Positions 6,466-55,924 of a stretch of DNA of 64,000 nucleotides are shown here, piece after piece. The position numbers and the translations under genes were made by a program. Origin of the DNA: Capsaspora owczarzaki ATCC 30864 (taxonomy: Eukaryota > Opisthokonta > Filasterea); the NCBI RefSeq assembly GCF_000151315.2, contig NW_011887302.1:801108-865107 (forward strand). Reading direction: 5' to 3'. Under the pieces are notes generated by a model. That model was not told the DNA's origin. It worked only from the letters and a program-made list of their open reading frames with translations, and searched no databases. The number at the start of each line of letters is the position of its first letter. The first letter of the stretch is position 1.

Positions 6466-6497
<32 letters not shown>

Positions 6498-21700: not shown

Positions 21701-24700
21701 CGAGTTGTCGCGTTGGGGACCGGGGCTCAGTGTTGGGTTGTCGATCTGTGGGCGGCTTCGGACACTGCGTTGTTGCACCGAACGCGACGAAAGAGACGAG
21801 TAGGTCTCTTCGAGCATACGTTTGGCGTCCGAGGCACCAACGGTCGTCGGGGTGCTGCTCGCACGAAGCCCAAGACGACGCTTGCCAACGTACTCAAACA
21901 CGCAAACAGACTTTTCAAGCACTTCAAAGAACGAGAGGATGCGATTCGGGAAGTCTTTGTTGCACTTCCACCAGAAGCGGACCAACTCAGGATTCGCATC
22001 GCGCAGGATGTGCAAGAAGCACACCAAGAGATCACGCGTCTCCTCAAAGTCGAGCACGTCGCTCGGGACTGCAGCCGACCCAGCCGCAACGCCAAACGTT
22101 CCGCCAGTGACCACCGACATGGTTGCATTGTTTGTTCCACGGATGGTACCGCCGTCCTTCAACTCCTTGGCTTGGGCCTCCGTCAAGGTGCGAACCGTCG
22201 CAGTGCCATCGGCGACACCTTCGCGATCCACAATGTTGTCGGACGTGGCTAGGCGCTTGACGTTCTCGAGAACGATATGAATGAGCGGGAAGTGCAAAGC
22301 CGCGATACGGGCACGGCACTCGGCATCGGCATACCGTTCGTCTGAGTCCAGCTTGGCCAACAGGTCTCGCACAGTGGTGATTGCGCGCTTTCGGAGCGTC
22401 TTTTCCGTGTGCTCGAGCATGAGGGACAACTCGTTGAGCAGAATGCCGCTCAGAATATGACGCTCGCGGTACTCTTCCGTGAGCATCAGCATGCGCTCGT
22501 TGTACGCCTTGGGCATGAGCGGCAAGTTGAGCGCAACATAATGCTCATAGTTGCACAGGATGCGGATAAACTCGAGCTTGAACTCGAGCAGCACCTCGGC
22601 ATCGTTCGGAGCAGTCTCATTCAAGTGACGCTGCACAAGCGACAGGATGAAGCCACGGTCGTAGAAGGCAAGGGCATCGCGCAAAAAGTAGGCAACAGAC
22701 TGGTTGAGGCGCTTGCCAATCGTGTGACCCGACTTGGAGCGCTTTTGAATCTCGAATGTGAGCAGCTCCAGCAATGCGCGAATGTTATTCGACAGAGCTG
22801 CGGGCAGTCGGTCTGCGCGTGGCTTGCTCAGCGCCTTTTGCGACGCAAGGAACTGCACCATGCTCTTGACGACAACGTCAAAGAAGAACCACGCATGCTC
22901 AAAGAAGAACCACGCATGCTTGAGCAGGTCCGTCATGCTGGGCTCGTTCTCCTTGATGAATGTAATCCAGAGGCGAATGATCTCGTCAAAGACGTACTGT
23001 GCGTGCGTCGGGGGTGGTGAGCAAACATTTTTTTTTTTTTTTTTTTTTTTGCAAAAAGCACAGCCGAGTAGAACCTTCTTCAACTCTCTCCCTCGAACAA
23101 GACATACCTTTTTGGTGTTGGTGGGATTCTCAAACATAAACTGCACAAACGAGTGCAGGGTGGGGTTGCGAGTGAGACCAACCGCGTCCTTGTGGCTCAC
23201 ATTGACAATATGCACCAGGGCGCGGAAAGTTTCTCTGCACGAAAAGCCAAGCCACACACAACAAAAAGGTTTCATCATTTTAGCACCATGAAACATCCTG
23301 GTCAAGCCCCATCCCATACCTGCCGCTCACGGCAAGCGCTTACCGGGAGAGATTTTCGGACGCGGTCGGCCGAACAAGAATGGAAAACAGCTGCGTGAGA
23401 AGAACAGAGGTGAACTGCACGACATCGGCATCGGTCGCCTTGAGGAGCTGCTTGACGCTTGTCAACACGGCCTCATCAGCGACAGCGGGCTGACGCGACA
23501 GGGCCAAGAAGCTATGGAGCTCGTTGGATTGGGTCGAAACGGTCGAGACGAGGCGCGTGGACAGCTTGAACAGGGTGCGCTTGCCATCGACCCACTTGAT
23601 GTCGGGCGAATCGGCGAGGTAGTTTGGAGCAAGCGTCGCGGCAACGGGTATGATTGACTCGACACAGACGTTGATGCGGCCGTCGAGGCGCAGCAGGGGC
23701 AAGAACGCCTGGCCGACCAACGTGTCGACCGGCTCGACCGTGCCTGGCTTTTTCGGCGGCTGGCAGCTGACGTGGTAGAACGAGAACAGGAGGTGGTGGT
23801 GTTCGGTCAGCTTTGTTGGAAGGGAAACCTTGATTTCCTCATACCAATCAGGCGACTTGTTGTGGTAGGTGACGGCCGTGGTTGAGCTCGTCACCAGGGC
23901 AGGGCCGGGCGGCTTGCCATAGATGCACTTGAGCGGCGTCGCTGTCATCGAATCGGACGCATACAGCTCGACTTTGCAAGCAAGGTTGCGCGCCTTGACG
24001 GTGGCGCCTCGGTTGTTAAAGTTGAGTGACGACGGGTAGACGTAGAGGTGGTGCGTGTACGTGGCGTTGGCGACCAGTGCAGGATGCACGGGGAACTCTT
24101 CAACCTCTCGGATGAGCTCGGCGGCGTTCAGCTTGAACATTGGCGCGACGGCAATGAGCGACGTGGTCAGAACGGACGGCGGCAGGTCATCCACGGTGGC
24201 TGCGGTGAAGATGATGCTGCCAGGGATGGCCTTGAGCTTCTTTTGAACGGTTCCCTTGCGGAACTCGACCAGGTAGCGGAAGAGATCGTCCTCGGAGAGC
24301 TTGTCGCCTTCTTGGCGGAAGAGGAGGCGAATGGCCAGGTCCTCGGCAGCGTCCAGCTCGCCCTTGGAGTTGAACAGCGGCGTTGCCGACCACGCCCAGG
24401 GCATGCGGTAGGCGCCGAGGCGCTTGGCATCGTCCTGCACGCTTTGTTTGGCTTTCAGCGTGTTCTTGTCACTGATGGTAATGTAGGGCTCGCTGGTCTC
24501 GTTGATGTCGCCCTGCAGAATCTTTTCGATTCGGACGACAAGGTAAATGTCCTGGTGCGGCGCAGTCACCGAGAACAGGGCCTTGCGCGCCTCCGCCGTG
24601 GGTTCACGCGGACCGGCAAAGGCAGGGACGAGCGACTTGACCTCGTCCTTGCTCAGTTCAAAGTGGAAGGTTTCGGAAATCTTGCGGCGCTCCTGTGCAT

Positions 24701-26892
24701 CGTACAGCGCAATGGAAACAAAGAACGGCTCAATATCCTCCAGCTTGAAGGAGAGCTCCTTGGGGGTGACGACGAAGCGCGTGCCAAAGCGCTCGTAGAA
24801 GGGCTCGGCCTCTGGGCGATCGCCGCTGTAACGCGAGCGCTCGAGTTGGGGATCCAGCTCTTGCTGGACGACAAACAGTCGGTTGCGGTCCAGCTGGCGA
24901 GCGCGCGTGTTTTGCTTGTCCGTTTCGCCGACCGTGTACTTGAGCAGCTCGGGCTGCGTGCCGTCTGACTCGAGCCGAGCAAACTCTGCGCGAATAATGT
25001 CAGCCGAGTTGTTGACCTTGCTGTTGCGATCACCTGGCCTGGGCGAGCTGTTGGAAACGGCGGGCGAGGAGGAGCGTCCTGCACGAAGGATGGCGTCCAT
25101 GTCGTCCGTCAGCGAGAGCGTTGGCGTCGACGCGCCACTGTTGCCGGATGTCGCAGGTCCAGTGCTGCTGGGTGCCGATGAGATCTTGTCGCGCTCGTCC
25201 ACCTCGAACGTGCGCTCGGCCAGCACCACACTACCCTCGTCCGCTCGCTCGGTGCGGCGCGAGTTGAAGGCGTTCTGGAAGTTGACAACATTCCAGTCTG
25301 ACACGTACGAGTTGACGCACGCCACCAGCACCGGGTCGGCGGCCTTCTCGTCGTAGCCAGCAGGCACGGGCGAGTGCACGGTGCGGAACTCGCGCGGGCG
25401 TGTTTCGACGACAATGTCGTCGCTGGGAACGACCAGGATGGACTTGAGCTTGTCAGCGTCCACCTCCTTTTGTCGTTGCGCCAAAATCCCTTCAAAGTTC
25501 ACCTCGACGAGGCTCGAGGAGGTGGTCGAGCTCGCTGCAAGCGGGTTTGTGCTGAACGCAGACGCGGTGGTGCTCGCCGCAACGGACGACGGCGTGGATC
25601 CGCTCGACATGATGGAACCCGATGTTGACGAGCGGTCATCGGATGCCGGCGCAGGGCTAGCGGCGGTCTGTCAAAGGGGTAAGATTTTTTTTTTTGGTCA
25701 GTGCTTTCAATGTCGACGGACGGCAGAATGTTACAAAACAAAAAACCAAGATGCATCGATTGCCAATCTCCCTCATTCCATCCCTCCCTCCTTTGCGTAA
25801 GCGTCAGCGGCTCCGCTGGGTGTCCAAAGACGATGGACGTACCTTTTGCATCATGACGGATTGGCGTTGCGATTCCGAGATGGAAGAGACCTCGCTCCGC
25901 ACCTCGCCTGGCGTCATGTTCCTGCACACACACATGCACACACATCCATACATACATGGCCAGCACAAGTGAGAAAATGACAGCGATGCTAAACGGGGGC
26001 AGTTGCTCCGAATCCAAGACAACAAGAAAGTGTGGTTTTCTATTTTTTAGTGATATTCGCGTGTACTCGCACGATTTCCGGTCGTGTGCAGAGTTTTGCA
26101 CTTCTCATCAACGCTTCCTTCAACATTCGATCTTGGTCAGAAAGCACAGGGGGGAGGGGACACGGATGTCTGTCGCCAAGAAGCGAGCAGCTCAAGGAAA
26201 GGAAAAAAAAAAAAAAAAGCAAGAATGTTCGAGTTTAGGCGAAGCCTTGTTGTTTTGCGGTCGAAGCATTGAAGGTCGGCTGCACTGGCTCGCGAGACCC
26301 GCGCGGCCAACTTGAATGCACACAATCGCGCTCAGTCCCACGGGAAGGATCCCTCCGACTGGCACACTGCCTGCGTCCGATCAGGCAGAAAAACAAGGGG
26401 GGGGGGAAAACCAGAAAATTTGACCTTTTTTTTTTTTTTTTTTTTTGGAGGGTTCGCTTTCTGATCAAAGGGTTGAGAGGGAATGGCAGGACGGCCTCCG
26501 CCCCGGTGGCAGAGACAAGAGCACCGTCAAGAAGCGAATCCACTTGGCAACGGATGCATCGGTGCGACAAAACGCGCCGCGGCACTCCGTTCGGAAAGAA
26601 GCAGAGGGCGCTTTGGGTGTATGAGTTGAAAAAAAAAAAGAAAAAAAAAAAAAGACCGCAAACACTCGACGTTGCATTCAAAAAAAAAAAAAAAAATAAC
26701 AAAGCACGTAATGCCAATTCCATTGAACAAAAGAAAAAAAAAAGAAAAAAAAATAACAAGGAAAAGAAAAATCCATTCCTTCCAATTGACTTGCTCAACG
26801 GGGTGGAGAGGAAAGACGCATGGCAGTAAAAGTCGATGGATACAAATCACGCACTTGTTGATGCGCTTGGCGAAAGCGCGCACGTCCGACAT
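18783..26892 (-). CDS. DOCK6/7/8-like guanine nucleotide exchange factor
   Basis: About twelve exons give roughly 2,000 residues matching DOCK-C (zizimin-related) proteins end to end. Exon 1 (26892 down to about 26856) encodes MSDVRAFAKRINK, like the RAFAQKI start of DOCK7. The large exon 25670-23346 holds the DUF3398-like region and the DHR-1/C2 domain (YPSSLNFNNRGATVKARNLA; LTEHHHLLFSFYHVSCQ). Exons 21494-19019 hold the DHR-2 catalytic domain (YYRVGFYGEKFG, YIQLTYVEPYF, RKTILTTEAFFPYL, VVLTPIEVAIEE, LQLQGSVSVTVNSGPLE). A last small exon (18927-18783) adds an acidic Ser-rich tail, reached by a donor at the apparent stop of the previous exon. Family knowledge says DHR-2 loads Rac/Cdc42 with GTP and DHR-1 binds phosphoinositides. 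A 7-residue duplication lies in a conserved helix near 22,900. Intron 1 is about 930 nt and full of homopolymers. Confidence 0.92.
22878..22919. repeat. 21-bp in-frame tandem duplication inside DOCK coding sequence
   Basis: Two perfect adjacent copies of a 21-bp unit (22,878-22,898 and 22,899-22,919). On the minus strand the frame duplicates HAWFFFE, so the product reads KHAWFFFEHAWFFFD. Family members such as DOCK7 have this motif once (QQAWFFFELMVKSM), immediately before the same MVKSM-type helix. Confidence 0.95.
23026..23050. repeat. Homopolymer T tract in a DOCK intron
   Basis: A run of about 22 T on the plus strand (A in the sense of the gene), in the intron between the exons ending PTNTKK and starting YVFDE. 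It is a likely sequencing-length uncertainty but does not touch coding sequence. Confidence 0.85.
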
Positions 26893-28378: not shown

Positions 28379-29774
28379 TGTGTCTGGCAAGAGGCAGGGC
28401 GCAGCCAAGGTGAGTGATGGATGAAGAGGGGGGGGGTTTGGGCCAGCAGGGAAAGGTTTGGAACAAAAAAGCGAGGAAAAAAAAAAAAGAAAAAAAATCC
28501 AAGATCTTTTTTTTTTTTTTTTTTTTCGTTGCTGCTCGCTCTGCATTGCCGTTTGAAGGCGAGACCTGCCCTGCTCACAGACGACGCACTCTGGCGTGCT
28601 CTCCACGTAGGAGCAAACCGCCGGGCTGCAGCACAGACGCATTCAAAAGCAAAACGCCTGAAACGAAAACGAAAAAGAAAACGAAAAAGAAAAAAAAATC
28701 ACTTCAATGCCTTTTGGCTTACAATAAAAAGAGGAGAGAAAGAACAAAAACCGCGTGGCTCGAATAAAAAAAAAAAAAAAAAAAAGCCAAAAAAAAAAAA
28801 AAAGGGCTTTTGCGTAGAAAAATTCAATGGCAATTGGGGATGACGTTCAATGGACTCGGCGAATCGAGCAAACGCGGGTACTTGCACTGCAAACAAGAAG
28901 AATGGCGCACACTTAAATACGGAATGGGCGAACATCAGTGGGGCTGGCTGGCGTTCGAGATGCCTGCGCAGCGTTTATCTTGTCGGCGTCTCTTTCTTCA
29001 GTGTTTTTGATGATTCATCCAAGGAACATCCTCAACAGCAAACCCTTTTGTAACCTTTCATCCTTGATAAATCTCAAGAGCACACTCTCTTTTCAGCTTC
29101 CTCTTTCGTTTTCGTTGCGGGTGGATTTTTGATTTTTCCAGCGAGACTGCATTGGTAGAGTTTTTCCAGCCTTGGCAACATCCACATTGCCCTGTTTGAC
29201 CGTCCCCCTTCGTCGCTGTCCCGCCTCGACTGTGACCACCCACCCCCCGTTCTATTCACCTCTTCGTTGCGTGCCTTGCCCTTTCTTCGACCGCCTTCCT
29301 TCAACCGCGTCCTCGTCCGGCAGCCGCTTCCGTTGATTCATCCACCATTTTTTTATGTTTTTTTTTTTTTTCAATTTCGTTTTGTATGGGTTTTGCATTA
29401 GAGAACGACTTTTTTTTTTTTTTTTTTTTTTCGGTGGCTTTTTTTTTTTTTTTTTTCCAATTCAATGCTGAGATCTCGTTGCTGCGTGCGTTTGCGTCGC
29501 GGCAGCCACCTGCTCGCTTTGGCCTCCATTGCCTCACACTCGTCCCTCGGCGTCTCACGGGCCCCTCCTCGTCCGCCTTCCTTCCTTCTCCACTCGTCTC
29601 GGCACTCCATTTTGTGGCTCACCAAAAAACGATATTCTTTCCTTTGTTTTATTTTATATTTTATTTTTTTTTCTACTTTTCCTTCTTCCTTCTCCTTCAC
29701 ACAACAGGCTTGCCTCCACCACCACCGCCAGGAACAACCTCAAATCTCTTACAGCTCACATCCACACAGACCAA
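28379..29774. promoter_or_regulatory. Divergent promoter region, eS28 / PP4R1
   Basis: 1.4 kb between two divergent starts. It holds at least eight A or T runs of 10-23 nt (for example 28,507-28,526, 28,767-28,785, 29,410-29,431 and 29,439-29,456). Part of the left half is A-rich on the plus strand, the right half T-rich and C/T-rich towards the PP4R1 start, where a 5' UTR intron is possible. No additional gene was recognised. Confidence 0.45.
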
Positions 29775-32700
29775 ATGGCCGCCATTCCGCAAGGGTTTGG
29801 CGACTTTTCGTCGAGCGACAGCGACCTGAATGGAGGTTACAGCGACCTCAATTCATACTCGTCCCACTACGCCGGGACGCTTGGCGACGACTCGGACGCG
29901 AGCGGCGAGATGGAGGACTCGATGCCCACCATGGAGGAAATGTCCATCGACGACTCGCTCACGCCCGTCGAGCGGATGCTCAAGTACGCGCGCAGCGACC
30001 TGGTGCTGCACCGATTGTTTGTGGCCAAAGACATTGTCGACACGCTGCGCTCCAGCCTGCAGGACTCCAACATGGACAGCATTCTGCAAGTTGTCGGCGA
30101 CCTGATGGCCGACCCCGAGCCGCTCATCCGCCAGGCGATTCTCCAGCAGGCCGCCCCGCTCGCCAAGGTCGCCTTTGCCCACCCGCAGCTGCCCAACCCT
30201 CGCGCTGCCGTTGTCGAGTTGCTCCGATTATCAAGCGCCTTGCTGCCCGACTCGATCGAGTCGGTTCGTCAGGTTGCGCAGACGGCCTTTTTGAGCATCC
30301 TCGAGCTCGGAGCCCTGCTGCCGTCCGACATTGAGACGCTCGTGTGCCCCGTCCTGCTGCGTTTGGCCACCGACGATCTCGAGGACGAAAACCGCATGAA
30401 CGCCATCACGCTGATGAGCAAGAGCACGCCGTTTGTGAGCCGTTCTGTTGTGGAGCGGTACGAATTCGATTTTTTTGTTTGTTCCTTCCCCTCCCCCATC
30501 GTCTTTTGTGGATGTTTCTTTTGAAATATTTCTTTGCGCTGACTCACATCCTGTTAACTCTCTTCCTCTCTCCCCCTCTCTCTATTCCGCTTTGTGTCTT
30601 GACCAGCATCTTTTTGCCCCAAATTTGCATTCTGTCCGAGGACGCCATGTTCCGCGTCCGAAAATCCTGCGCTTGCGCCATCGGCCCGATCTCCTTGGCC
30701 ATCGGCACCAAGCTCACTGTTGACCGCTTGTTGCCAAAGTACATCCGCATGTGCTCGGACAAGATTTGGGGTGTGCGGAAAGGCTGCGCCGAAAGCCTGC
30801 CGGATATCGCTCAAGTGGCAACGCCCGAGATTCGCGAGACTGCTCTGGTTGGCATCCTCGAGTCGTTTGCCACTGACGTGTCGCGCTGGGTGCGCAGCTC
30901 GGCCTTCCAGTTCTTGGGCCCGTTCATTGCCACCTTTGCCAACACTGCCGAATGCGTCGAGTATCCCGTCCCGCCGCCCGAACTCCGGGAACAGCATGGT
31001 CTCGACGCACCGTCGACTGATGAGTCCTCCGAGGCGGAAGTGAACGCGACCGCAATGACCCTCGGCGGAGTCACCATCGACGAGAGCGCTGACGACGCAG
31101 CTTCTTCATCGCGCACCACCGAGGACGAAACCCCCGCATCTCCCCCGCCAGTCGTTGCCAGTCCCACTGCCGCTTCCGTTTTCACCATCGCGTCTCCTGC
31201 AAAGCCCGTCTCCGAAATGAACAAGGTCGAGGACTTTAATGCGTTTAATTTCTGGCGGGCACCCATCCCTGCGTTCGAGATTGACGCTGCCTTGCTCTCT
31301 CCTGCCAAACCCTCTCCTGCCAAGTCTGCCGCAGCACCCGCACCCGCACCTGCAGCACCCGCCACCACAGCGCCCGCTACTGCCGCACCCATCGCCACCA
31401 CCACGCCAGCTTCAACGGCCTCGCCCGCGCCAGCTGTTTCTGCGACACCCGTCCCCGCCAAAGAGGTATGCGCCGCTCGTTTCGACAATAGGGGGGCACG
31501 TGCTTTTTCCTCCCTAGAAGGCACCGACCCTGCTTTCATGTGCTCACACTGTTCTGACATGATTTTGTTTCTGCATTGTTAGGTGGAGCTGCCGTACAAG
31601 CTTCTAGAATTTTACATCCAAATGGCCGAGCCCAGCAGCACTCGAAGCATCGACAACGACATTGGCTTCCATTGCGCGTACAGCTTGCCCGCAGTGGTGC
31701 TTATTTTGGGTGCCTCCAAGTGGCGCCTCGTCCGCGACACCTTCTTGACGTTGTCGCGCGATTTGCAGTGGAAGGTCCGACGGTCTCTTGCGCATTCTCT
31801 GCACGAGCTGGCTGCCATCATTGGCCCCGAGCTGACCGAGACGGATTTGCGACCCGTTTTCGACGTCTTCCTGAAGGACCTCGACGAGGTGCGTGTCGGC
31901 GTCGTGAAGCACTTTGCCGACTTTTTGACCCACCTTGCGCCAGAAGCGCGCGCCCAGTACCTGAGCATGCTCGAAGAGCTCAAAAAGACGGAGAACACGC
32001 AAAACTGGCGCTTCCGTCGCCTGCTCGCCAAGCAGCTTGACAAGCTCTCGCAGCTCTTCTCTGCACACGAAGTCAAGAAGCACATCAGCCCTGTCACCCT
32101 GGCTCTGGCGGCGGACGACGTTGCCTCCGTCCGTGGTGTGGCCCACCGCTCGCTCGCCTTCATGGTCAACCGCCTCTTGCAAGAAGGCGCCACATCTAGC
32201 ACCACTGGTTCGATTGCGGCCTTGGCGTCCGATCTTTCCAACCACGTTATCGAACAGTTTGCCTGCGGCCCAAGCTTTGTTAGCCGCATGAAGTGAGTGT
32301 TCGAGAGGCCGGGAGGGGAGGGTGGCGCGCGGAAGGTGGTGCAAGATGGATTTGTCTTGATTGCGTGGTGCTGATTTTTCTGCGTGTGCGTATGTGTGTT
32401 TTCGCATCTAGTTATGTGCAAATTTGCCAGCATTTTGTCGAAGTGGTTGCTCCCGAAGCCTTCACCACTCGCTTTTTGCCAAGTTTGCTCTCCCTTGCCA
32501 ACGATCGCGTTGCGAACGTGCGCCTGTCGCTCGCGCGCCTGATCACCCAAACATTGCTTGTTCGAGGTGAGTTTGTTCGGAGCATTGCTCAGTCAAGGTT
32601 TTGCGGAATGCTCACTGTGTCTTTTTTTTTTTTTTTTAATTTTCTTTGTGTTTTTCTCGCCAGACTATTTTGTGGCACTATCCACTTCCGACGCAGTCTT

Positions 32701-36277: not shown

Positions 36278-38696
36278 TCAAGGATCCAATGTAGCAAGGA
36301 GGCGTCCAAAAGACGGACGCTCATCGGCATCGTCATCAAGACACTCGAGCGCGAGGGTGACAATCTCGGTGATGCTCTGCTGCTCTGCCTCGGTTGGTTT
36401 GAGCGCCGAGTCCAGCATCTCAACGAATTTCTGCGTTTTTACAGCCTTTCGCGTATCAAGCTTCAGACGGCTGGTAGGCTTGAGGGCAGTTAACAGCTCC
36501 AGTAGAATCATGCCAAAAGCATAAACGTCCGTTTTGACCGTCATTCTGCCATCGATAAGGAACTCGGGGCACATGTAAACAGCAGTGCCTTGAACGGTCT
36601 GTGTACGAAGGTAGCTCTTCTCATCGAGGTGTTGGGCAGCGCGGACGAGACCAAAATCCGAAACTTTTGCGTTGAAATGCTCATCCAAAAGCACATTGTC
36701 CGTCTTGAGATCGAGATGGAACAGTGCATGGTCAGGGAAGGCTGTCTGGACGTAGTGCATGCCGCGGGCGACATCAGCGGCAATGCCATGGCGCTGAGAC
36801 CAGGTCAGCGGAGGCGTGTTGCTCTTGCGATCCAAGCGATCACGAACCGATCCGTTTGGCATGAACTCGTACACCAGGCATCGCTCGTCGCCTTCCTCTG
36901 CATAAGACAGAATGGCAATAATGTTTGCGTGACGGAATTTCGACAAGGAGTCCAGTTCCGACTTGAATTCGACCGAGCCCTGCTTGGATTCGGCGGACAG
37001 CTTTTTTATGGCAACGCGAGGGCCAGGCAAACTAGCGCCATACACGCGACCAAATGCTCCTTCGCCGAGCAGAGAATCATCAGCAAAATTGTTCGTGGCG
37101 GAGACGAGAGTTGCGAGAGGCACTTGTGGGACGGGTCCGTCAAAGTTCGATGCGGATCCATCAGTAGGTTGATTGTGCTCAAGCACGTCGATCCGATCAA
37201 GGGCTGACTTCAGCTCAAGATCTTTGGCTGTAAGCTCCTGGTCCTTGGCAGCGAGATTTGAACGAAGTTGTTGCAGCTCCTGGTTTTTCGTGGCCAACTT
37301 GCCGCGCAGTTGCAGATTCTCAATTGCTGCGCTTGCTGCGGCACGAGCTGCAATTTGAAAGTTGGCAGGGGACGGAACACGCTGATTGTCAAGGCTATCA
37401 CAGCCGCCACCCAATTCGCAAAGCAGATGAGTCGCTTGTTGTTCATACAAGAATCCAATAAACAAGCAGTCTTACCTAGAGTTACAAATGGTATTGCCCG
37501 TTTGCTTGAGTGCATTTATTCCAGTGTTGGTAAGGAAATTATTGTGCAAACTGTTCACGTCAGATACATCGTCATATTGGAGCCTGAGTCTAACGGCTGT
37601 CAGAGCATCGTGAAGCGATCAATATTTACTCAAGCCTTGTCAGCGTCTTGTTCACTTTGAGTGCCGCAGCGATCGCTTGCGCTCCCGCATCGCCAATCTG
37701 ACTCTGGCGCAGACTGTCCATCCCCTTCATCAGTGAGTACAGTGAATACCCAGCTTCCATGCATCGTGAAGCGATCGATATTTACTCAAGCCTTGTCAGC
37801 GTCTTGTTCACTTTGAGTGCCTCAGCGATCGCTTGCGCTCCCGCATCGCCAATCTGATTCTTGCTCAGACTGTCCGTCCCCTCCACCAGTGAGCAAGCTG
37901 AATTCTCTCTCTGCGGGATCACCCAATCGCATGCAACAGTCAAAGTCCGATGCGTTACTGGAGCTCCTTTAGAGGCTTGTTCACTTTGAGTGCTTCAGCA
38001 ATCGCTGTCGCTCCAGTATCGCCAATCTGATTCGCCCACAGACTGTCCATCCCCTCCATCGGTGAGCACTGAATGCCCTCGGCTGGATCACTCTCTCACG
38101 TGCATCAGTCAAAGTGAGATGCTTTACTAGACCCAGGTCAGCGTTGCGTTCACTTTGAGTGCTGCAGCAATCGCCTGTGCTCCAGCAGCGCCAATCTGAT
38201 TGTTGTGCAGACTGTCCATCCCCTTCATCGGTGAGCCACTCTGAATGCTCTGCCGGTGTCCCTCACTTCAAAAAATCATTTAAAGTGAGATGCCTTACTT
38301 GAGCAGAGTCAGCGTCTTGTTCACTTTGAGTGCTTCAGCAATCGCCTGTGCTCCAGCAGCGCCAATCCGATTCTCAGCCAGACTGTCCACATCCCCCTCC
38401 ATCAGTGAGTACAGTGAATACCCCACTCACATGCATGTTCAAGCGAGATGCCTTACTGGAGCCCAGTCAGCTTCGTGTTCACTTTGAGTGCCTCAGCAAT
38501 CGCCTGCGTTTCAATATCGCTAATCTGCTTGTCATTCAGACTGTTCCCTCCATTCTCGTCAGCACACACACACACGCTGTCAACAACTGTGTTCCAATCA
38601 ACTCGGGCTTTTATCTTACTGGAGCGTTCCACTCGCACTCTTGACCATGTCATACAACTCGCGCTGTCTCTGATTCATATTCTGATACGACAGCAT
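36278..38696 (-). CDS. LRR / coiled-coil / non-RD TKL protein kinase
   Basis: Nine exons give 590 residues: 38696-38620, then six 84-bp LRR exons (38457-38540, 38299-38382, 38128-38211, 37959-38042, 37786-37869, 37630-37713), a short capping exon (37550-37476) and the kinase exon 37394-36278. All internal introns are phase 2. The LRRs are RNase-inhibitor type (NQIGDAGAQAIAEALKVNKT). A coiled coil of about 45 residues (QLRGKLATKNQELQQLRSNL and on) precedes a TKL kinase of the IRAK/Pelle/plant-RLK group: LGEGAFGRVY, VAIKK, Tyr gatekeeper in CLVYEFMPNGS, catalytic loop HLDLKTDNVLL, SDFGLVRA, GTAVYMCPE and KTDVYAFGMILLELL. HRD is replaced by HLD, making it non-RD but with catalytic Asp, Asn and DFG intact. 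There is no signal peptide, and the only frame-compatible splice into the kinase exon skips a hydrophobic stretch, so the protein looks cytosolic. Confidence 0.85.
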
Positions 38697-40765: not shown

Positions 40766-43700
40766 TTAGCGCGGAGGCGGTTGCATAGGCTTGGCTTGCG
40801 GAGGTCCACTCGGCATGTGTGGCATGGCGCCTGGCATGCCGTAGAACGGGTACATTTGCATCATTGCACGCTGTTGACTGGCATCCATCCCCATGGGAGG
40901 CATGTATCCAAATGCAGGGAAGCCAGATGGCATCATGGCCATTCCCGGAGGAAACCCGGCAACGTTTCCCACAGGCATCATCACGACATGGCCGGGCGGC
41001 GGTTGCATGTGTGCAGGCCGGTCCATGTGAGTTTGCTCTGTCGGTGATGCTGTCGTTCTTGGCATTTGCTGCGAGCGAGGTGCTTGGTGCACACCGCCAT
41101 TTCGTACATCCGGTGAGAGGAATGGCGCAGGTTCCGACGAGGCCAAGCGCAGCGTCTTGGACGGCGGTGCAGCGGGACTGTCGTCGGCAATCTTGGCAAA
41201 CCCACGTTTCTTGGAAGTCGAATCATCCCGCGAAACGAGCTGCGATTCAATCATCTCCACAGTGGCGCTCAGGAGATCCGCCTGTTCCGGAAGGAGACAG
41301 AGAATACCAAAAACCAAGACGCAAAAGCACAAACACACCGAAAAAACAAAATCATAATCAGCATTTCATATTCCTCAACAACATTGCCCCAAGAGACACT
41401 CCGCTCGCCGCGACACATACCGTGTTGTCAAAAGATCGCCGAGAGACACTCTGCACTGCAAGCCTCAAGCGTTGAAGCTGGTAGTCCACAGGGGTCAAGT
41501 TGTACTGGAAGCGAGCAAGCGAGTGGTTTTCACCGCCAAGCTCGTGCGTTTGCACGCCATCAAACAGGACAAGTCGCACGTTGCACGCGGTTCGGCTGCT
41601 TGGCATGGCAACAGAGATGCAAGAGCTCGAGACAAACCAGGTGGAGAGCTGAACAACCTGTTGCATCGAGCTGTTTGCCGCCGCCGCGAGCTTTTGCCGC
41701 ACTTGCATCAGCTCGCTTTGGTCGTTGCTCGTGTCGATGCCGTGATCGACCGCACCAAACACGCCAAAGGCAGACATTTCGGGCGTAAAGCCCTCTCCAA
41801 GCAGCGCGAGCACGGTTCGAACGCTGGTCGGACCCTCGCCTGGAATGAGCGTCGAGCAGGTAACGTGCGCAGCATCTGTCCAAGCAATGAACGAACGAGA
41901 ATCAAAAAAACAACTTGTCAAACGAGCAGACACAAAGCAAACCCACCGACCAACGCGCACAACTTACTCGAGGAAGCAGCGCCCGCAACAGTTCTGCTGT
42001 TGAAAGGTCCAAACGAAGACGGCGCAGATGATTGAGGCGACATTTCTCCAAGTCTACTCGCTCGTGCAAACAAGCTGACTGGGGTGGGTGGCACGTACTG
42101 CGGAACAACGTGGCTCGACGGAGGCCTGGGACTGCTGTGGACCGCGGCGAAATTGGAATGACCACCACTCGGACCACTCGGACGCAAGCCCTGGGCCGGA
42201 GCATGGCTTGCTCTTCTACCCGAGGATCGCTCAAAGCCGTCCTCGTCGTCAAACTCTGCACTCGACTCGTCGCTATCATCATCGTCGTCGTCGCCGTCGC
42301 GGTTGCGGCGGCCAGTCTTGCGACGCAGCGGTACGCGAGACACAGATCGGGATCCAACGGAGGATGGCTGGGGCGATGTCGGCGCGGGATAGGACGCGGA
42401 AGCCGATGGGACCAGCTCCTGCAAGTAAGTGGCTGCTTCGTCAGCTGGCATGCGTGTGAGCGCCTTGCACACGACCCGTCCGACAAAGTCATCGCGTGGC
42501 TTGTGCTTGGAGTTGTTGTGCACAAAAATACCCGGAGTCATGAACGCCACCTCTGACTTGCGCTCGGGGCTGCCGTCCGTCAGGCCGCCGCAACCCAGCG
42601 GGTGTGAGACGAGCGCAAGGCGGAAGCGCCGCGGGTTGCGCGGATTACCCGCAGCCTTGATGCAGTTCTGGTTGATGCGGAACGAGAGGCTGAGCGTGGT
42701 CGGTTCGCGAGCCACGTTGAACGCAAAACTGCTCGGAGGGTTGAGAATGGTTGGGTCTTGTGGCGTGTCTTGACGATTGCCGCATGCCTTGCCTTCCAAG
42801 CATCGCACGCACGTCATTTCGTGGGTGGTTAGCACGCGGCGGGCCGAGTCGAACTTGTCGGTGCCCTCGTACGGAACGAGGCACAACGTGCTTGACTCGA
42901 CGACATACAGATAGAGGCTTGCCGTCGTGGCCTCAAAGCGCAGCGGGCCCCGACGATCGGGGTCTGGGTGGTCTGGGCTGGACGCACAAACGTGAATACT
43001 GAGGTCGTACTTGATGCCGTTTCTGAACACCTCCTCCCCAGTGTGCTGGACGAAGGCACGATCGTCCGCTTGGCGGCGCCTCTTGATCGTCTGCGCGTCA
43101 AACTGGTAGCATTGGATCACGTCGGCGCTGCTCTTGTCGGTCGACTCTTCGATCTGCTCTCGCGTAGCGCTCATGAACGCGGCACATTCTTGCACAAGCC
43201 GAGGAGCGATTGAGTTTTTGAGATACAAAACAAATAAAAAAGAAGCAAAAGACGGGGAAAATCACATACTGGCGTGCGTGACAAAGATGGGCAGCCCAGA
43301 AGCATCGCGGAGTTGGAATCGGAGGAACAGAAAGTTTGACTTGCGCGCTTCCGGTCCAGGATAGGCAGAAACCGAAATCAGACCGATTGCCCGCGAGGTG
43401 TTGAGCTCCGAAGGCTCCGTGATGTGTTCAATATCCTGGAATGTAGAATGATTGTCAGATGAACGTTGACATTTGGGGATCAACAACAGCAACAGCAATG
43501 AGACTTACCGGATGACGAATATCGCCCCTTGGGATTTCTTCCCTGTTGCCAAGTAACAAGACAAACGGAATTCACGATGTAAGCCAACGAAACCACCAGT
43601 ATTTTGGCAAGTTTCATGTTAAAGGTTTTTACATTGGAATCTTGGACGAGTGCGGCCCGCGATCGGTATCATGGGTCTCAATGGTCTCGGCCTCGTCGTT

Positions 43701-43907
43701 TGGAGGCTCCGCAACCACTTGCGCATCAGCATCGTCAACCTCCGTCTCCTGCAGACTACTGCACCATATTTCGTCAGTTCTCGCGTGCTGTGGTACATTG
43801 TTCCATGAAACCCGAGTTTTCTCTTACCTGAGCTGTCCACTCGTATTCCTGAATTTGTCATGCATCTCTCGCTGTTTTGCAGTCATATTATTCTGATCTG
43901 TCAGCAT
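40766..43907 (-). CDS. COE/EBF-family transcription factor with LRR-derived N terminus
   Basis: Seven exons (43907-43828, 43758-43633, 43542-43509, 43435-43270, 43188-41968, 41875-41421, 41281-40766) join without frame breaks to 865 residues. The COE DNA-binding domain (about 105-390) starts ARKSNFLFLRFQLRD. It keeps the zinc knuckle HEMTCVRCLEGKAC with the exact EBF spacing H-x3-C-x2-C-x5-C, then GNRQDTPQDP, NQNCIKAAGNPRNPRRF and FVHNNSKH. A 150-residue disordered acidic/Ser/Pro linker follows. An IPT/TIG domain (about 545-660) starts CSTLIPGEGPTSVRTVLALL. A helix-loop-helix-like segment has VDYQLQRLRLAV and ADLLSATVEMIESQL, parallel to IDYGFQRL and AADLVEAL of EBF1. The tail is Met/Pro-rich. 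Exon 1 matches the first exon of the two LRR genes in this window and exon 2 resembles an eroded LRR. The frame is open upstream to 44030 (acidic, no ATG), so an extra 5' exon is possible. Confidence 0.9.
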
Positions 43908-45920
43908 TGAACGAGAGTTTGCTTCGAGTGCATCAGCTGCTTGTGCGTCCTCCAAGTGTTCCTCCTGCTCCTCGTGCTGGTGCTCGTCCTCTAACTCGTC
44001 ATCCTCGGTGCTTCTGCCAAGACACGTCAATCACATACACACATACGCGCGCAAGACAGGTCTCGAACGGTGAGTCGCGTTCCGAGGGGAGCTGCGAAAT
44101 TTCTTTGGTGCGGCTGGCCCCCAGCCAAATTCACTCCATCCACAAGTGACCGCGACGCGTGCGAAAACGAGTCAACTCGCACTCGGAAAGAGGCCTCGTC
44201 CACGCCAAGGTGAGCGAGTTGTCGGTGCGACTCCAAAAAACCCAGCAGCGTTCTCAACGTTGTGACAGTGATGAGCTCACTCAGCTCACGGAGGGGTCGA
44301 TCATTTTTCTCACCGTCATCTCAACTTCTCAATAGGACATTGATGTCGCATTTGTGACAGTCTGAGAAATCTACTCGTCCCAGCGATCAGGGAGTTTCCA
44401 GAGACGACGAGGGAACTGCCAGTGTCGCAGAGTCGACATTCACTGTTTCGTCCCTCACTGAGACTTGTCACAAAAGGGTAAGCACACCCCCAGCATCGTC
44501 GACATGTTTGTCTGAGCAACGATGCCTTGGTGCTCTCTTGCGACTTTATCCACACAGAACGAAAAAAGGGGTTTACCGCTCAAAAAAGCTCGATTCAGCT
44601 CAAACTGGCGTTGACGTCGTCGACACCTGACAATCGTCGAAACTCCGACGCCGAGCATCGATCGATCGGAAAGACACACGCGAGAGAGAGAGAGACGGAA
44701 CGGAAAAAAAAAGACAGGTTGTCACTTCATTCACTTCATCAAATTGACAGCTCCCTCGTTTACCCAGCAACAGCCTGTTGCAGCCAAGCCACCACAGACA
44801 TGATGGTGATGCAATGCGAGGCTGAATCGCAGTGCCGCACGGCGGGAGTCTGACAAGCGGCGTCGGGACAAGCGGCGACGGCGACCCTGAGGGAATGAAC
44901 ATGGCGCTTTGATCGTGTGTGTTCAATGTCGTTGGCCCCACATCGCCGACTCCTCATCGACAGCCCGATTCCACCCCGCCTGCAGCCACGCATGCGACCT
45001 TTGTTGCGCGCCTGTGGTTCCTTTGGGCTCTGACACACCGTCACCTCTGAGACTCGAGTTTGTCTGCTGGGACTGGGCTTATTTTTTTTTTCTTTTTCCA
45101 CTTTGTTTTTTGTTCTTTTTCGTTGAACAGCTTCGTCCGTTGAGAGGAGGGAATGGTGGGCGAGGAGGAGGAGGTGGGACACCCGCAACCCGCCTGCTTC
45201 AACTCACTCTAGGTTCGGCACGGGCACAGTTGCAAACCGCGGGCTCGCATCGTGGGCGTGGGGGTCGCGGGGCGGCGTCTCGTCCGCGTCAAGCGTGTCG
45301 CTCGAGTTCATTTGGGAAAAATACTTCTCGAGCTGTCAAAGATATAAAAGTGAGGTTTGAGCTTTTGACAGGTCCGTTCTCCCCGAGCTCGCAGCAGCAG
45401 CAGGACGCTAAAACCCCCGACGGTTCCGATGCATTCTCCGACTATACCGCAGCATAGTAAAATGAAATGAGATTTGCTCGCGAGGGAGCGAGGTTGGTCA
45501 CAGGTGGGTGCACAAAAAAACGGATCCGATCGTTGTTGCTCTTCAACACAAAACCCCCCTTCTTTTGTCAAACCGAATATGCTTCTCCAACACACTCTTG
45601 TCAAATCGAGTATTATTCTATGATTAAAGTGGCAAGGGAGCCCATGGGGAACAGGAGGGACAGAGAGTTCCGCTTGCTTTGTCGTCGATGCACAAGAAAT
45701 CAGGGTCACTATCAAAGCGTCAAGCTCAACAGATAGTTACACTGCCACAACCAATAGACCGGTCAGAACGGCATGGGATGAGGGCGATCCAACTCGGTCG
45801 CAAGCCAGCACAGCAATGGCCGGTGTGCTTTTCTCTGTCGCGAGCGCCCGCGTTAAGCCTGGCATTCAATGGACAGAACAAACCAAGACCAAACACCTTT
45901 TCGTTGAGTAATTGCACAGA
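43908..45920. other. Two-kilobase stretch without a recognised gene
   Basis: It lies between the COE start and the DPH6 3' end, and should hold the COE promoter. An acidic open frame (43,908-44,030, minus) precedes the COE ATG and is bounded by a tcttggcag acceptor-like site, so an unrecognised upstream exon may lie here. A plus-strand frame at about 45,120-45,457 is Gly/Arg-rich then Ser/Gln-rich and has no known domain. No tRNA, snRNA or LRR-like sequence beyond the COE exons was found. Confidence 0.45.
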
Positions 45921-48900
45921 TCAAACAAAGCGCATCGTCGTTATTGAGACAAACGCCCACTGACTTTCAGAAATCTGGGGGCTTGTTTTCGGACCCAAGG
46001 AATGGAACACTCGCAAGCTGACAGCTTGTGCACAGGTCGGCGTCAAATCAGCGCGCTCGCGGAACAACGAGAGCCGAGCATGCGGCGCATTGCGAGAGAC
46101 CGCGGTCCAGCACTTGGCAGTGAGTAGGGCGACATGCTCAACATCAACGGTTGTCTCGGCATCGTGCTCTGCACAGAGACAAACAAGTACAGAAAATGAG
46201 AGCAATTTCATGAAAAAAGAGAGAGACTTTCAATGAAGCAATGCCACTCCAAATCAAAGATCGCGAGCATGGTACCGATGGTCAAGACAACAAACAACCA
46301 TCCAAGTGGCACGTTGCTGCAAATTTCCAATGACGCGGTCAAGTTTTCATGTTGGACTGACTGCTTGGATTCTGACGACAATTGTGCAAGCCAATACAAC
46401 CAAGGCATAATGAGAAATGAGCAATTCACGCACGAAAGCGAGACGAAATGCTCTGTTGATCATACTTGTCCATCGAGTTGCAGCAATGACTGCCACCGTT
46501 TCCAGTTCAACACTCGCAGCTCGAGGTAATGCGGGGACTTGGGCTAGCAACGTCAACGGCGGCGTTGCCGTTTCGTCCGCCTGAAAGAGAGCTGTGAGCA
46601 AACATGTCAAGTTCCACCCTAAAACCATCCCAACAAACTTACCTGACAGTGCTGCCGAACAAAGGCTTGGAATAGTTGAGAGGCGAGAAGGCCATACTGA
46701 ATGTCAAGCACGTAGCAGATCAAGAATGGCACACGCGCTAGGTCGCACGAGGTGGCGCTCAAGACTTGATGAAGATGACCCAGGGCCAGCCACGTCTGCT
46801 CAGCGTACTTGGCAAGTGGAGACTCGGACGAGCGCAACAGTGTCATGGTGCCAGGGACGAGCGGGATTTGGCCAGCAACAAAGTTGAGATTGCCAACCTA
46901 TATTGTTGAAGATGTGAAGGTGAACTCACACCGAATTTCAAGACAAAAAACAGACAGTGCCAGCACGAGCATACCTGAACACTTTGACTATAGGGACCAA
47001 TGTTGGCAGGAGCCCAGTGTGACATGCCTTGGACGTGCATTACGCGGCGAGATCGGACGAGCTTTGACGCAGCCTCGCAAAGCTCCCGACGTGCTTGTTT
47101 CCGCCGAGTCGGTGTTTCATCCTCACCATCAGAGTCTGCCTCTGAATCGGAAAGATCTGCAGGAACCGCAAATGTCGGGTTGGGTACGGACGCGACGCAA
47201 TCGAGTTGCGCGTGAATTCCTGGTGGCAGCCGCACTTGGATGCAGATGCTATTGGAGAGCAGCAGAGTTAGAAACACCCATGCCAGAGCAATCAGCAATA
47301 GCACCAACCAAAAAAAAACATACCGAGAAGCAGGACTGACATCAAAGTATCGCCCATACACGGCGTTGACGCGACCAAAGTTGGCGAGGTCCGCGACATG
47401 CAAGTGCATCACCGACACATGAGCGAGAGATGTTCCAATGGACCGAAGACGATCTGGCAGAGAGGTAAGTGAGGCATCCGACGAGTGCAAAGGTAGAAAA
47501 CATCGTCTCGAGCACGTACCAACGAGCTGTTCAAAGAGAGAAACAATCTGATCGTCAACGGACGATGCCACCGAGATGTCCGGGGTGATCAAGCCAACCC
47601 ACACATGGCCGTGTGCCTGCTGAAGGTGAGACGGTGCATCTAAACACGATAGCAAAATCCAGAGTTAGCATCCCGACATGACAAACAGAAACACGAGATG
47701 CAGCAAAGTTACAATGCTCCGATTGGCTGGCATTAATCACGGGCTCCGAAGTCGAGGCTGCGAGCGGCGCGTCTTCACACAAAGTGAGGTGTTGCTGAAG
47801 AGTTTCATATGATTCGACCTACGGGAGCGTGAACGATGAGAAGAAGTTCTGTCGCATGTTCAATCTTGCTCGACCAGTTACCATTTGGAACGGATTGGAG
47901 GTGGAAATGACAGCACGAAGCCTCTCTGCATCCAGCGCCCAATCGCGCTGAGAAGGAATATTGTCCTTGGGCTCCAAATGCAGCTTCTTAATGCGCAGGT
48001 ACGCCACAGGTGCAATCGGGTCGTGGCTGTGGACGACGATCTCCGTCTCATCTCTGTGATAGATTCATGCAACGTGAATGAAGCGCGGATCGTTGACGAT
48101 GATCGTGGTGGGTTTTCAGCGACAGCATTCTGCTGCTGCCTTTTCTTCTTACACAACGATGCGGTGACGGAAGAGTGGGCAATCGACCGTGAACGACTCG
48201 TATTCGCCGCCTTCACCGCAAATATGAAGCCCGTACATTTCATTCTGACCACAGGACGGGATGCACATGAGTACTTGTTCAATTCTACAACTACGCCATT
48301 CGCATCAGAGCCTACCATGCGCTGCAAGTGACTATGGACTTGGCCGAGCGTTTTGCCGAGATGTTTCCTGGGCTCAAGACCTGCAACAATGTGTGCATGA
48401 GCGCTCGCTTTCGCACAAAGCCGACGAACGCTGCTGAACGCTCAACGCGATACAACGCATAAAAAAACCAAAACAAGGTGGCTACTCACCGACAGCCGCG
48501 ACTTTGATCAAAATGGCCTCCAAGCCGGCATCAATCATCTCACGCATGAGGTCTGCCTGAGGTCTCCTCCACATGAATGCAAGTGACGTTAAACCAAGTC
48601 GCTTGCAGACATGCTCCACACGAAGTCGCTGATAATCCGACGCGATCGCACCAACCGAGACAGCCTCGACTTCGGGATGCAGTTCCTACATCGAATGAGA
48701 TTGAAAGCCCCCCAAAATGCAAGGGAAATTGAATCGGCCATGGCTCAAAGTCAGCATTCATCCCAACCTAACAGCAGTAAATAATCCTTCCCACAGCACA
48801 AAGTCTGAGAAGTCTCGCTTTCAAAGGAGCCACACCTTGACTTGCTGGAGCAAGGCGAACAAGTCCTCGACCTCGTCCGGGCCGCCGCCGACGGTCGATG

Positions 48901-52592: not shown

Positions 52593-55500
52593 ATGTCCAT
52601 CCAGCAGGGAGGACAAGCCGAGCAGCAGCAGCAGCAGCAGCAGATGAGGGAGGAGCGCTCGTCGTTTGGCCGCCTTCGCAACCTGCTGCTGGACGACGAC
52701 GTTGACCAACCTCAGCAACCACCACTCGATGGTGATGCTCATGCTCGTTCTGCTGGTGATGGTGATGGTGATGATGGCGGTGAGGCAGTGGTGGTGGTCT
52801 TGGCGCACAATCCGCTGCTCGCCATTCAGCGTGTGCGCTGGTTTAGCGACGTCCGCTTTGCCCTCTCCCGCCGCCAAGACGCACATCGCTACATTGCTGT
52901 CGATCGCCTGACATTGGAGGACCCGCTCGTGCGCCTGGCGATCGACCAGGCAACCGACTGCGACGCCGCGTCCTCCTCGCTCACTTCTTCTTACCCTGCT
53001 TCCTCTGCTTCCTCCTCGTCGACTCCCGCTCCAGCTGCCACGACTTCAAATGTACTCGTCAGTCTGGTTGCCAACGCTATCGCAATGGTCGAATTATTGT
53101 TCAAGTGTTTGATTTGCGTTTTTTGACTTGTATTCTCAGAACGCTCAGATTTCTCGGCTTCGCAATGAAAACATGCGCCGCGCATCGAAAATCCTGTCAA
53201 ACATGGCCTCACGTTTGTCCACAGTGCTCATCCGCTGCGTTGGTTGGACGCTCAGAAAGTGCCTCCGCGCCTTGTTCTCTGCCGTCTATGTCCGCGTGGA
53301 TCAGAACGACCGGCTGCGCGAGGCTGCGCGCGCACATCCGAATGCGCCAATCCTCTTCTTGCCATCGCACAAGTCGCACATTGACTACCTGCTCGTGTCG
53401 TACCTCGCGTTCGACGCCGACATTTCCGTGCCACACATCGCTGCTGGCGACAACTTGAACATTTTCTTTTTCGGAGGGCTCGCACGTCGTGCAGGCGCCT
53501 TCTTTATTCGCCGAAAGCTCGAGTCGGTGATGCGAAGCGGTGCAAGACAGTCAAACACAAACGCGGATCGCGGCAGCACCGCCGACCTGCTCGACCAAGG
53601 TAGCCAGGATGGCACTGATCCGACTTGGGAAGTTGGACTGGATGAAAGTCCGATGGGCTCGGCATCACGGTCGCGCTCAGCATCGGGCCCGTTGCTGCCG
53701 TGGCTGTTGCCTTCCCCGGTCGGATCTGTGGTGTCCTTGACCGGCCAGTTGGAGGTCGCCGCTCCTTCTGGTGAGCAACAACAACAACCATCACAACAAC
53801 ATGCCAACAACACTCCTCCCCGACGACGCTCAGATTCCCGAGCGACTGCGGCAACGCGGGATACCGTGTACCGAGCTGTTCTCCGGTCCTATGTGCGGAA
53901 CTTGCTCCGTATCGGTGGCCATCTCGAGTTCTTCCTCGAAGGAGGCCGATCGCGCTCTGGCAAGGTTGCCATGCCAAAATATGGCCTGCTGTCCCTCGTT
54001 GTGGACACCTTCCTCGACAATGAAGTCGATGATGTTCTGGTTGTTCCCATCAATGTCAGCTACGATCAGATTGTCGAAGGCGACTACGCTCGAGAGCTGA
54101 TGGGTGCTCCCAAGCAGCCAGAATCCTTCTTTGGCACGCTGCGCGGTCTGGCGCGCACTGTGATGCGCTCCTACGGCAGTCTGTACGTGGATGTCGAAAC
54201 ACCATTCTTGCTGACCGACTTTTTGCGCGCAGCCACACGTCCCGAACAAGCACAACATTTGGCGCGCACTGCGTCCGTCGATTCGCTGCACGCAGGTCGT
54301 CCTCACGACCTGGTCTTGACCCCTGCTCCAGCCTCGGCTTTCCTCGGATCTTCTTCTTCTGCTTCTTCTTTTCCATCATCGAGCAATACTTCGATTGTTC
54401 CAGTCGCTTTGGCAGATTTGCGGACGACGGTGCTGCCTGCTCTCACCCGCTCGCGTCGTCGCGAAATTGTGGACGAGCTGGGACGTCGTGTCCTCCATTC
54501 AGTCTCCAACCTGGCCACGCTTACAAGCACTGCGATGGTGGCCTTGCTGTTTACAACACGTTTCCGCAAAGGAGCCTCGATGTCTGAACTCACCAACGGC
54601 TTCAACTGGCTTGTTGCCGAGGCCTCGGCGCGCGGCCGAGCTGTTGGATATATTCCTGGAGGCGATGCAGGTTTGTACACGCGACTTGGCATCGGTGCAT
54701 GGCATTTTTTGATTTCCTGACCTGCGTAAATGCTTTCGATTTTGTTTGGCATGTTTGAGCAGAAGACGCAGTTGTCTACGCCTGCACTCTGCTTGGCGCA
54801 GATCTTGTCGATGTCAACGCCGAGGGATTGATTGTGCCCACGACCTCTGTTCCGAACGTGTGTTTGCCCATGCTTTATCCTTTGCGATTGCTTTTGTTTT
54901 GCGCCGGTTGTGGCTCACTGCTATTTGTCTCCTCAGATTTTCACCATGTGCTTCTACGCCAACCAAGCCGCATCCATGTTCCTCATTGATGCTGTTGTTG
55001 CTTCCGTCATTCATATGCATTTGAAGCGCGAGCTTGGTCTCCAGAACGAGCAGGAGGATGAACTTCCCGTGCTTTCGCAACGACGGCGGAGCGCCAGCGT
55101 CTCGGGCGCGGTTGCTGCTGTAAAGTCCAACCCAAGTACACCCAATCGCAAACGAGCCGCGTCGGTCTCGTCGCTCGAATACGGCTTTTCAATATCGCAC
55201 GACGAGCTGATTGCTGGCGCGCAAGAGGTGTGCTCGATTCTGGCCCACGAGTACATTTTCCATCGCCCTCACGAGACTCCGTTGGTCGAGCTGCTCAACC
55301 ACGCCATCGCCGGGCTTGTGAAGAACGACGTATTGACCCTGGAAGAGACACTGCGCCCTGACTCTCCGGCTCGCTACGAAGTGTCGTTGGACCCCGCGTC
55401 GATGGAATTGGTTCGCTTCTTGCGATTCACCATCAAGCCCGTAATTGACTCGTACTGGATGTCCGCATGTGCCTTGCTTCCGTTGCTGCAAGGGGAGCAG

Positions 55501-55924
55501 ACCGAGTCCGCCTTTGTTCGCAACACTCAGCAGCTGGCGAACGAGTATCTCCAGGCGGGAGTTCTCGAGTGCCCAGAGACAGTAAGTCCCGACGAAGAGT
55601 TGATTGTCTGAGTAAAGCGAGGGACTGAAGAGGAGAGCGGTTCTTTGGCTTGATGACTGTAAACTTGATTTTTTGTCGCGTCCAGATTTCGCGCGAAGCC
55701 ATCAAAAACGCCATTCAATTGCTCGAATCTTGGGGTGTTGTGACCGTCCAAGTCGCATCTGACGTTCGTGTAAGACTGTGCTCGAGCACGGGGGATGGGG
55801 TGTGACATTGCCTTTTTCTCATCATCTTGTGCTTCCGACTTGTAGACGCTTGTTCTGCGAGAACGCTACCAGTCGAGACCGGCACTTATCGCCATCGCCA
55901 AGTCCATTGCCCAATTTAGTTAAT
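52593..55924 (+). CDS. Glycerol-3-phosphate acyltransferase (PlsB/GPAM type)
   Basis: Six exons (52593-53051, 53140-54670, 54764-54856, 54937-55581, 55686-55769, 55846-55924). Acyltransferase motifs are present in order: LPSHKSHIDYLL (HxxxxD at about residue 230), AGDNLNIFFFGGLARRAGAFFIRR, FLEGGRSRSGK (about 420) and VPINVSYDQIVEGDY. The C-terminal part continues the PlsB/GPAT helical region (FTMCFYANQAASMFLIDAVVAS). It makes 1-acyl-glycerol-3-phosphate, the first step of glycerolipid synthesis, at the outer mitochondrial or ER membrane. A Ser/Gln-rich insert of about 120 residues splits the acyltransferase domain between motifs II and III, and the N terminus is a Gln- and Asp-rich low-complexity stretch. 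Closest family by motif spacing is GPAM. GNPAT is the alternative. Confidence 0.9.

Follow-up and report, generated by a model that had tools for sequence, protein, structure and literature searches.

Does the genome of Capsaspora owczarzaki, which NCBI places in Filasterea, encode a genuine transcription factor of the COE (EBF) family, and how much of the DBD-IPT-HLH order (DNA-binding domain, IPT/TIG domain, helix-loop-helix) does its product retain? The locus that raises this question lies on the minus strand of a stretch of 64,000 nucleotides, here called the window; all positions refer to it unless a contig is named. The gene, running from 45311 to 40766 (minus strand), has eight coding exons whose spliced translation is a protein of 935 residues. 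This model was built from the DNA before comparison with any public protein, and a script comparison then found it identical, without a single difference over 935 of 935 residues, to the public 'transcription factor unc-3 [Capsaspora owczarzaki ATCC 30864]' (P0001). The first-pass annotation had proposed seven exons and 865 residues from the ATG at 43907, a model that we reproduce but which lacks the first 70 residues, since it misses a 5' exon (45311-45208) and the second exon is longer than was thought (44013-43828). Each of the seven introns begins with GT and ends with AG (the acceptor of intron 5 being the less usual AAG); the first measures 1194 bases and the remaining six between 69 and 139. 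We regard this, with a probability of roughly 0.93, as the COE-family gene of C. owczarzaki, whose protein public databases already list as 'transcription factor unc-3', and its product as a proposed DNA-binding dimer. Its features are as follows.

40766..45311, minus strand: complete coding span of the gene; the spliced translation equals public protein P0001
45208..45311, minus strand: coding exon 1, residues 1-34 (spliced model)
43828..44013, minus strand: coding exon 2, acidic N-terminus, containing the ATG at 43907 (spliced model)
43633..43758, minus strand: coding exon 3 (spliced model)
43509..43542, minus strand: coding exon 4 (spliced model)
43270..43435, minus strand: coding exon 5, in which the DNA-binding domain begins; RKSNF forms residues 181-185 (alignments and spliced model)
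41968..43188, minus strand: coding exon 6, remainder of the DNA-binding domain and bulk of the long low-complexity linker (PF16422 match and alignments)
42782..42823, minus strand: zinc knuckle within exon 6, residues 328-341, H-x3-C-x2-C-x5-C (read from the sequence; 4 of 4 ligands invariant in the alignment)
41421..41875, minus strand: coding exon 7, candidate diverged IPT and putative first helix of the HLH (weak profile match, no Pfam match)
40766..41281, minus strand: coding exon 8, putative second helix of the HLH, followed by a Pro/Met-rich tail and the stop (spliced model)

Membership in the family is carried by the DNA-binding domain. The Pfam model COE1_DBD (PF16422) matches the 935-residue protein with 97.2 bits (E 1.4e-27, cut-off 27), and in a search of the genome (27.46 Mb in 29 contigs) the match at window 42494-42925 was the sole one to this model. 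Among PDB sequences, the top three matches were all COE1 (3lyr, 3mln and 3mlp, E 2.6e-21 to 1e-20) and covered the DNA-binding domain only; the further three matches listed had E values of at least 0.026 and aligned with the acidic linker. The zinc knuckle is complete (H328-x3-C332-x2-C335-x5-C341), in agreement with what had been read from the DNA alone, and the three short stretches earlier singled out as diagnostic, GNRQDTPQDP, NQNCIKAAGNPR and FVHNNSKH, are all present in the protein. For comparison, the DNA-binding domain was aligned with those of five of the 12 other COEs found, namely P0003 and four named proteins from animals; among these five, 92 columns are invariant. At 53 of these 92 columns, the four zinc ligands included, the Capsaspora residue is identical, and these columns, together with the domain itself, are what the protein has in common with the animal COEs (EBF1-4, Collier, UNC-3). 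It differs from them in having insertions in the DNA-binding domain, absent from the other COEs aligned, as well as a long linker after the domain, a single intron in the region encoding it (against six ancestral ones in animals) and IPT and HLH domains that Pfam does not recognise. According to PMC8339956, residues S65, R163, P177, K193, N197 and R209 of EBF3 contact DNA, are linked to such contacts or have been found mutated; when mapped on our alignment by manual count, five of the six are identical in Capsaspora (S183, R334, P348, N380 and R392), and K193 is replaced by R376.

Could such a domain have been mistaken for a COE domain, or be an intruder in this genome? Factors of the Rel/NF-kappaB, NFAT and CSL types also combine a DNA-binding domain with an IPT-type domain that follows it. 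The fold of EBF has been likened to that of Rel DNA-binding proteins, to judge by the title of Siponen et al. (2010), so that assignment of the Capsaspora domain to Rel/NFAT or CSL instead of COE deserves consideration. The profiles speak against it, as the first-pass annotation had expected: at E up to 10 Pfam lists for the protein COE1_DBD and one unrelated sub-threshold model, with no match to Rel (PF00554), CSL or NFAT. The zinc knuckle, which sets the Capsaspora protein apart from these factors, is present, and the PDB sequences matched at E < 0.01 are three in number, all of them COE1. A Rel/NFAT origin was rejected on these profiles, and we attach next to no probability to it; a genome-wide RHD search also gave no match, but, like a genome-wide COE1_HLH search, it lacked a positive control and is uninformative about the genome. 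Equally far-fetched, in our judgement, is the idea that the gene is animal DNA, either a contaminant or recently transferred. In favour of this idea, some short stretches, FVHNNSKH among them, are identical to animal COEs. The domain as a whole, however, shows only 35.1-38.0% identity with the five other COEs, compared with 52.0-84.5% between members of that set, its single intron contrasts with the six ancestral ones of animals, and its third-position GC (0.65) falls inside the range of five ORFs of the window (0.56-0.78). Since the protein belongs, in addition, to the public Capsaspora proteome, animal contamination was rejected, and the earlier surmise that the genome is that of a protist is borne out by the identity of the protein with a public C. 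owczarzaki one.

The window and the genome hold other features that we record in passing. On the minus strand, three successive ORFs at 20316-25670 resemble a single gene for a DOCK C/D-type (zizimin-like) exchange factor, two of them matching DOCK_C-D_N, DOCK-C2 and DHR-2 lobe A and the middle one (21548-23326) having no match. The same strand carries a protein kinase domain at 36281-37471 (PK_Tyr_Ser-Thr, 157 bits), with no LRR found by Pfam at E up to 0.001 in this single ORF, its neighbouring exons being unjoined, and a sub-threshold match to Ribonuc_L-PSP at 46846-47664 (20.4 bits, cut-off 27.3), which would fit a DPH6 fusion. On the plus strand there are an ORF of 725 residues that matches SH3 four times (6491-8665) and two ORFs matching glycerol-3-phosphate acyltransferase, probably parts of one gene (53113-55608). 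Elsewhere in the genome, two pairs of TIG matches on contig C10 (546301-546819 and 552031-552549) are 5.7 kb apart and have the same two scores, 55.2 and 49.0 bits, which suggests that a gene bearing TIG domains has been duplicated in tandem. Profile searches of the genome also returned two matches to Runt and six rows each for T-box and integrin-beta, where rows are not to be equated with genes, as one gene can give separate rows for its exons; these results are in keeping with C. owczarzaki.

The C-terminal half of the COE protein is another matter. IPT and HLH domains had been proposed to follow the DNA-binding domain, but neither is matched by its Pfam profile: IPT/TIG (PF01833) and COE1_HLH (PF16423) gave nothing at E up to 10, either with the whole protein or with isolated segments, and the same scan detected both domains in the two other COEs it included, P0003 and one from a fish (the HLH of P0003 scoring 26.7 against a cut-off of 27). 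There is a weak match to a home-made profile, constructed from the IPT-HLH regions of the five COEs used in the alignment of the DNA-binding domain. Against residues 613-790 this profile scores 4.2 bits, equalled by 2 of 1000 shuffles, and under a second scoring scheme the score of the segment was reached by 10 of 2000 shuffles with gap settings of 11/1 and by 1 of 2000 with 12/0.1. Scores so seldom reached by shuffling speak against the view that COE-like sequence is confined to the DNA-binding domain, with no true IPT or HLH in the C-terminal half, and that the full architecture either arose on the animal stem or has been lost from Capsaspora. The same can be said of the best-placed match within residues 435-935, which, poor as it is in mid-alignment, extends collinearly from 622 to 762 through the IPT-HLH junction, where DYQLQRL of Capsaspora is aligned with DYGFQRL of the other COEs. 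What that view can claim, besides the unmatched Pfam models and the weak home-made scores, is a probability of just 2.2% when hhalign compares the IPT-HLH profile with the Capsaspora segment, two windows among the 127 drawn from other ORFs that outscore this segment under the second scheme, and a comparison of the candidate segment with PDB sequences that recovered no EBF chain and whose sole match was unrelated (E 0.17). Among COE chains in the PDB, 3MLP, 3N50, 3MUJ and 3MQI span all or some of the IPT-HLH region of protein P0002. Both outscoring windows come from the ORF at 29472-30521 and match the HLH part of the profile, a resemblance that we judge to be due to chance. Taking these observations together, we consider an absence of true IPT and HLH domains rather unlikely; the sequence of the C-terminal half probably includes a diverged IPT-HLH region, albeit one that is unproven. 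Because the IPT and HLH assignments depend on a weak match to other COEs, the complete architecture is likewise unproven, and the proposal that the whole of it predates animals exceeds the evidence, in which profiles recognise the DNA-binding domain alone and the IPT and HLH are just suggestive.

The intron structure provides a further view of the history of the gene. The aligned part of the Capsaspora DNA-binding domain is interrupted by one intron, which splits codon 206 behind its first base; the remainder of the domain, including the zinc knuckle, is encoded by a single exon. In animals, as reported in a 2008 study (PMC2394523), six introns occupy the same positions and phases in the domain across deuterostomes, protostomes and cnidarians, and Drosophila and C. 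elegans have lost introns secondarily. The difference may reflect loss of introns in Capsaspora or their gain on the animal stem. A tentative scenario, to which we would give slightly less than an even chance, is that the pre-animal COE gene encoded the full DBD-IPT-HLH series with a DNA-binding domain hardly split by introns, and that animals inherited this gene; most, if not all, of the six introns they share would then have been acquired on the animal stem, where the IPT and HLH domains would also have become tighter. This scenario is made less probable by the hhalign value of 2.2% and by the option of intron loss. If it is true, COE would no longer belong in tabulations of core animal-specific families, of which Table 1 of PMC6040629 is an example.

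By analogy with EBF1 and EBF3, the Capsaspora protein most likely forms a dimer that binds DNA by means of the COE domain. The knuckle would, as in EBF1 and EBF3, be shaped by a zinc ion coordinated by H328, C332, C335 and C341, and conserved residues around R181-N184, R334, N380 and H429-H434 would, on the same model, make the contacts with the site. The diverged C-terminal IPT/HLH segment probably aids dimerisation, and the acidic N-terminus and the Pro/Met-rich tail probably contact the transcription machinery. A palindromic DNA site and a role as activator are also predicted from the two animal proteins. The sequence TCCCNNGGGA, which we take to be the EBF-type palindromic site, has a single occurrence in the window (expectation 0.48), a number reached by 39 of 100 shuffles and thus near chance.

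The presence of a COE gene in Capsaspora is already known, but it has been unevenly recorded. The 2008 study cited above found no COE in Monosiga and terms the coe genes metazoan-specific. Fortunato et al. (2016; PMC5064789) state that COE is present in Capsaspora, citing the Capsaspora genome paper. A later survey, of 2018 (PMC6040629), nevertheless enters 'transcription factor COE 1-4' in its Table 1 as one of 39 families that it regards as core animal-specific, although C. owczarzaki was, by its own account, part of the original analysis; the record is therefore inconsistent, and the COE domain found here at window 40766-45311 contradicts that entry of the table. As whole words, COE and EBF are absent from the main text of PMC5560861, PMC8061703 and PMC4739763, and a literature search whose coverage left out most subscription papers returned no title on the function of the Capsaspora gene. 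Regarding its distribution, the largest return of a protein database search for COEs comprised 13 proteins, namely the Capsaspora one, 11 from animals and P0003; this search needs shared five-letter words and can miss animal COEs, so that absence elsewhere is not implied.

These findings mean that a regulator of neurons, muscle and B cells has a DNA-binding part that predates animals. Moreover, Capsaspora has been both transfected (PMC6001378) and genome-edited (PMC9170242), according to the titles of the two reports, and what a COE factor does in a unicellular relative of animals is thus directly testable.
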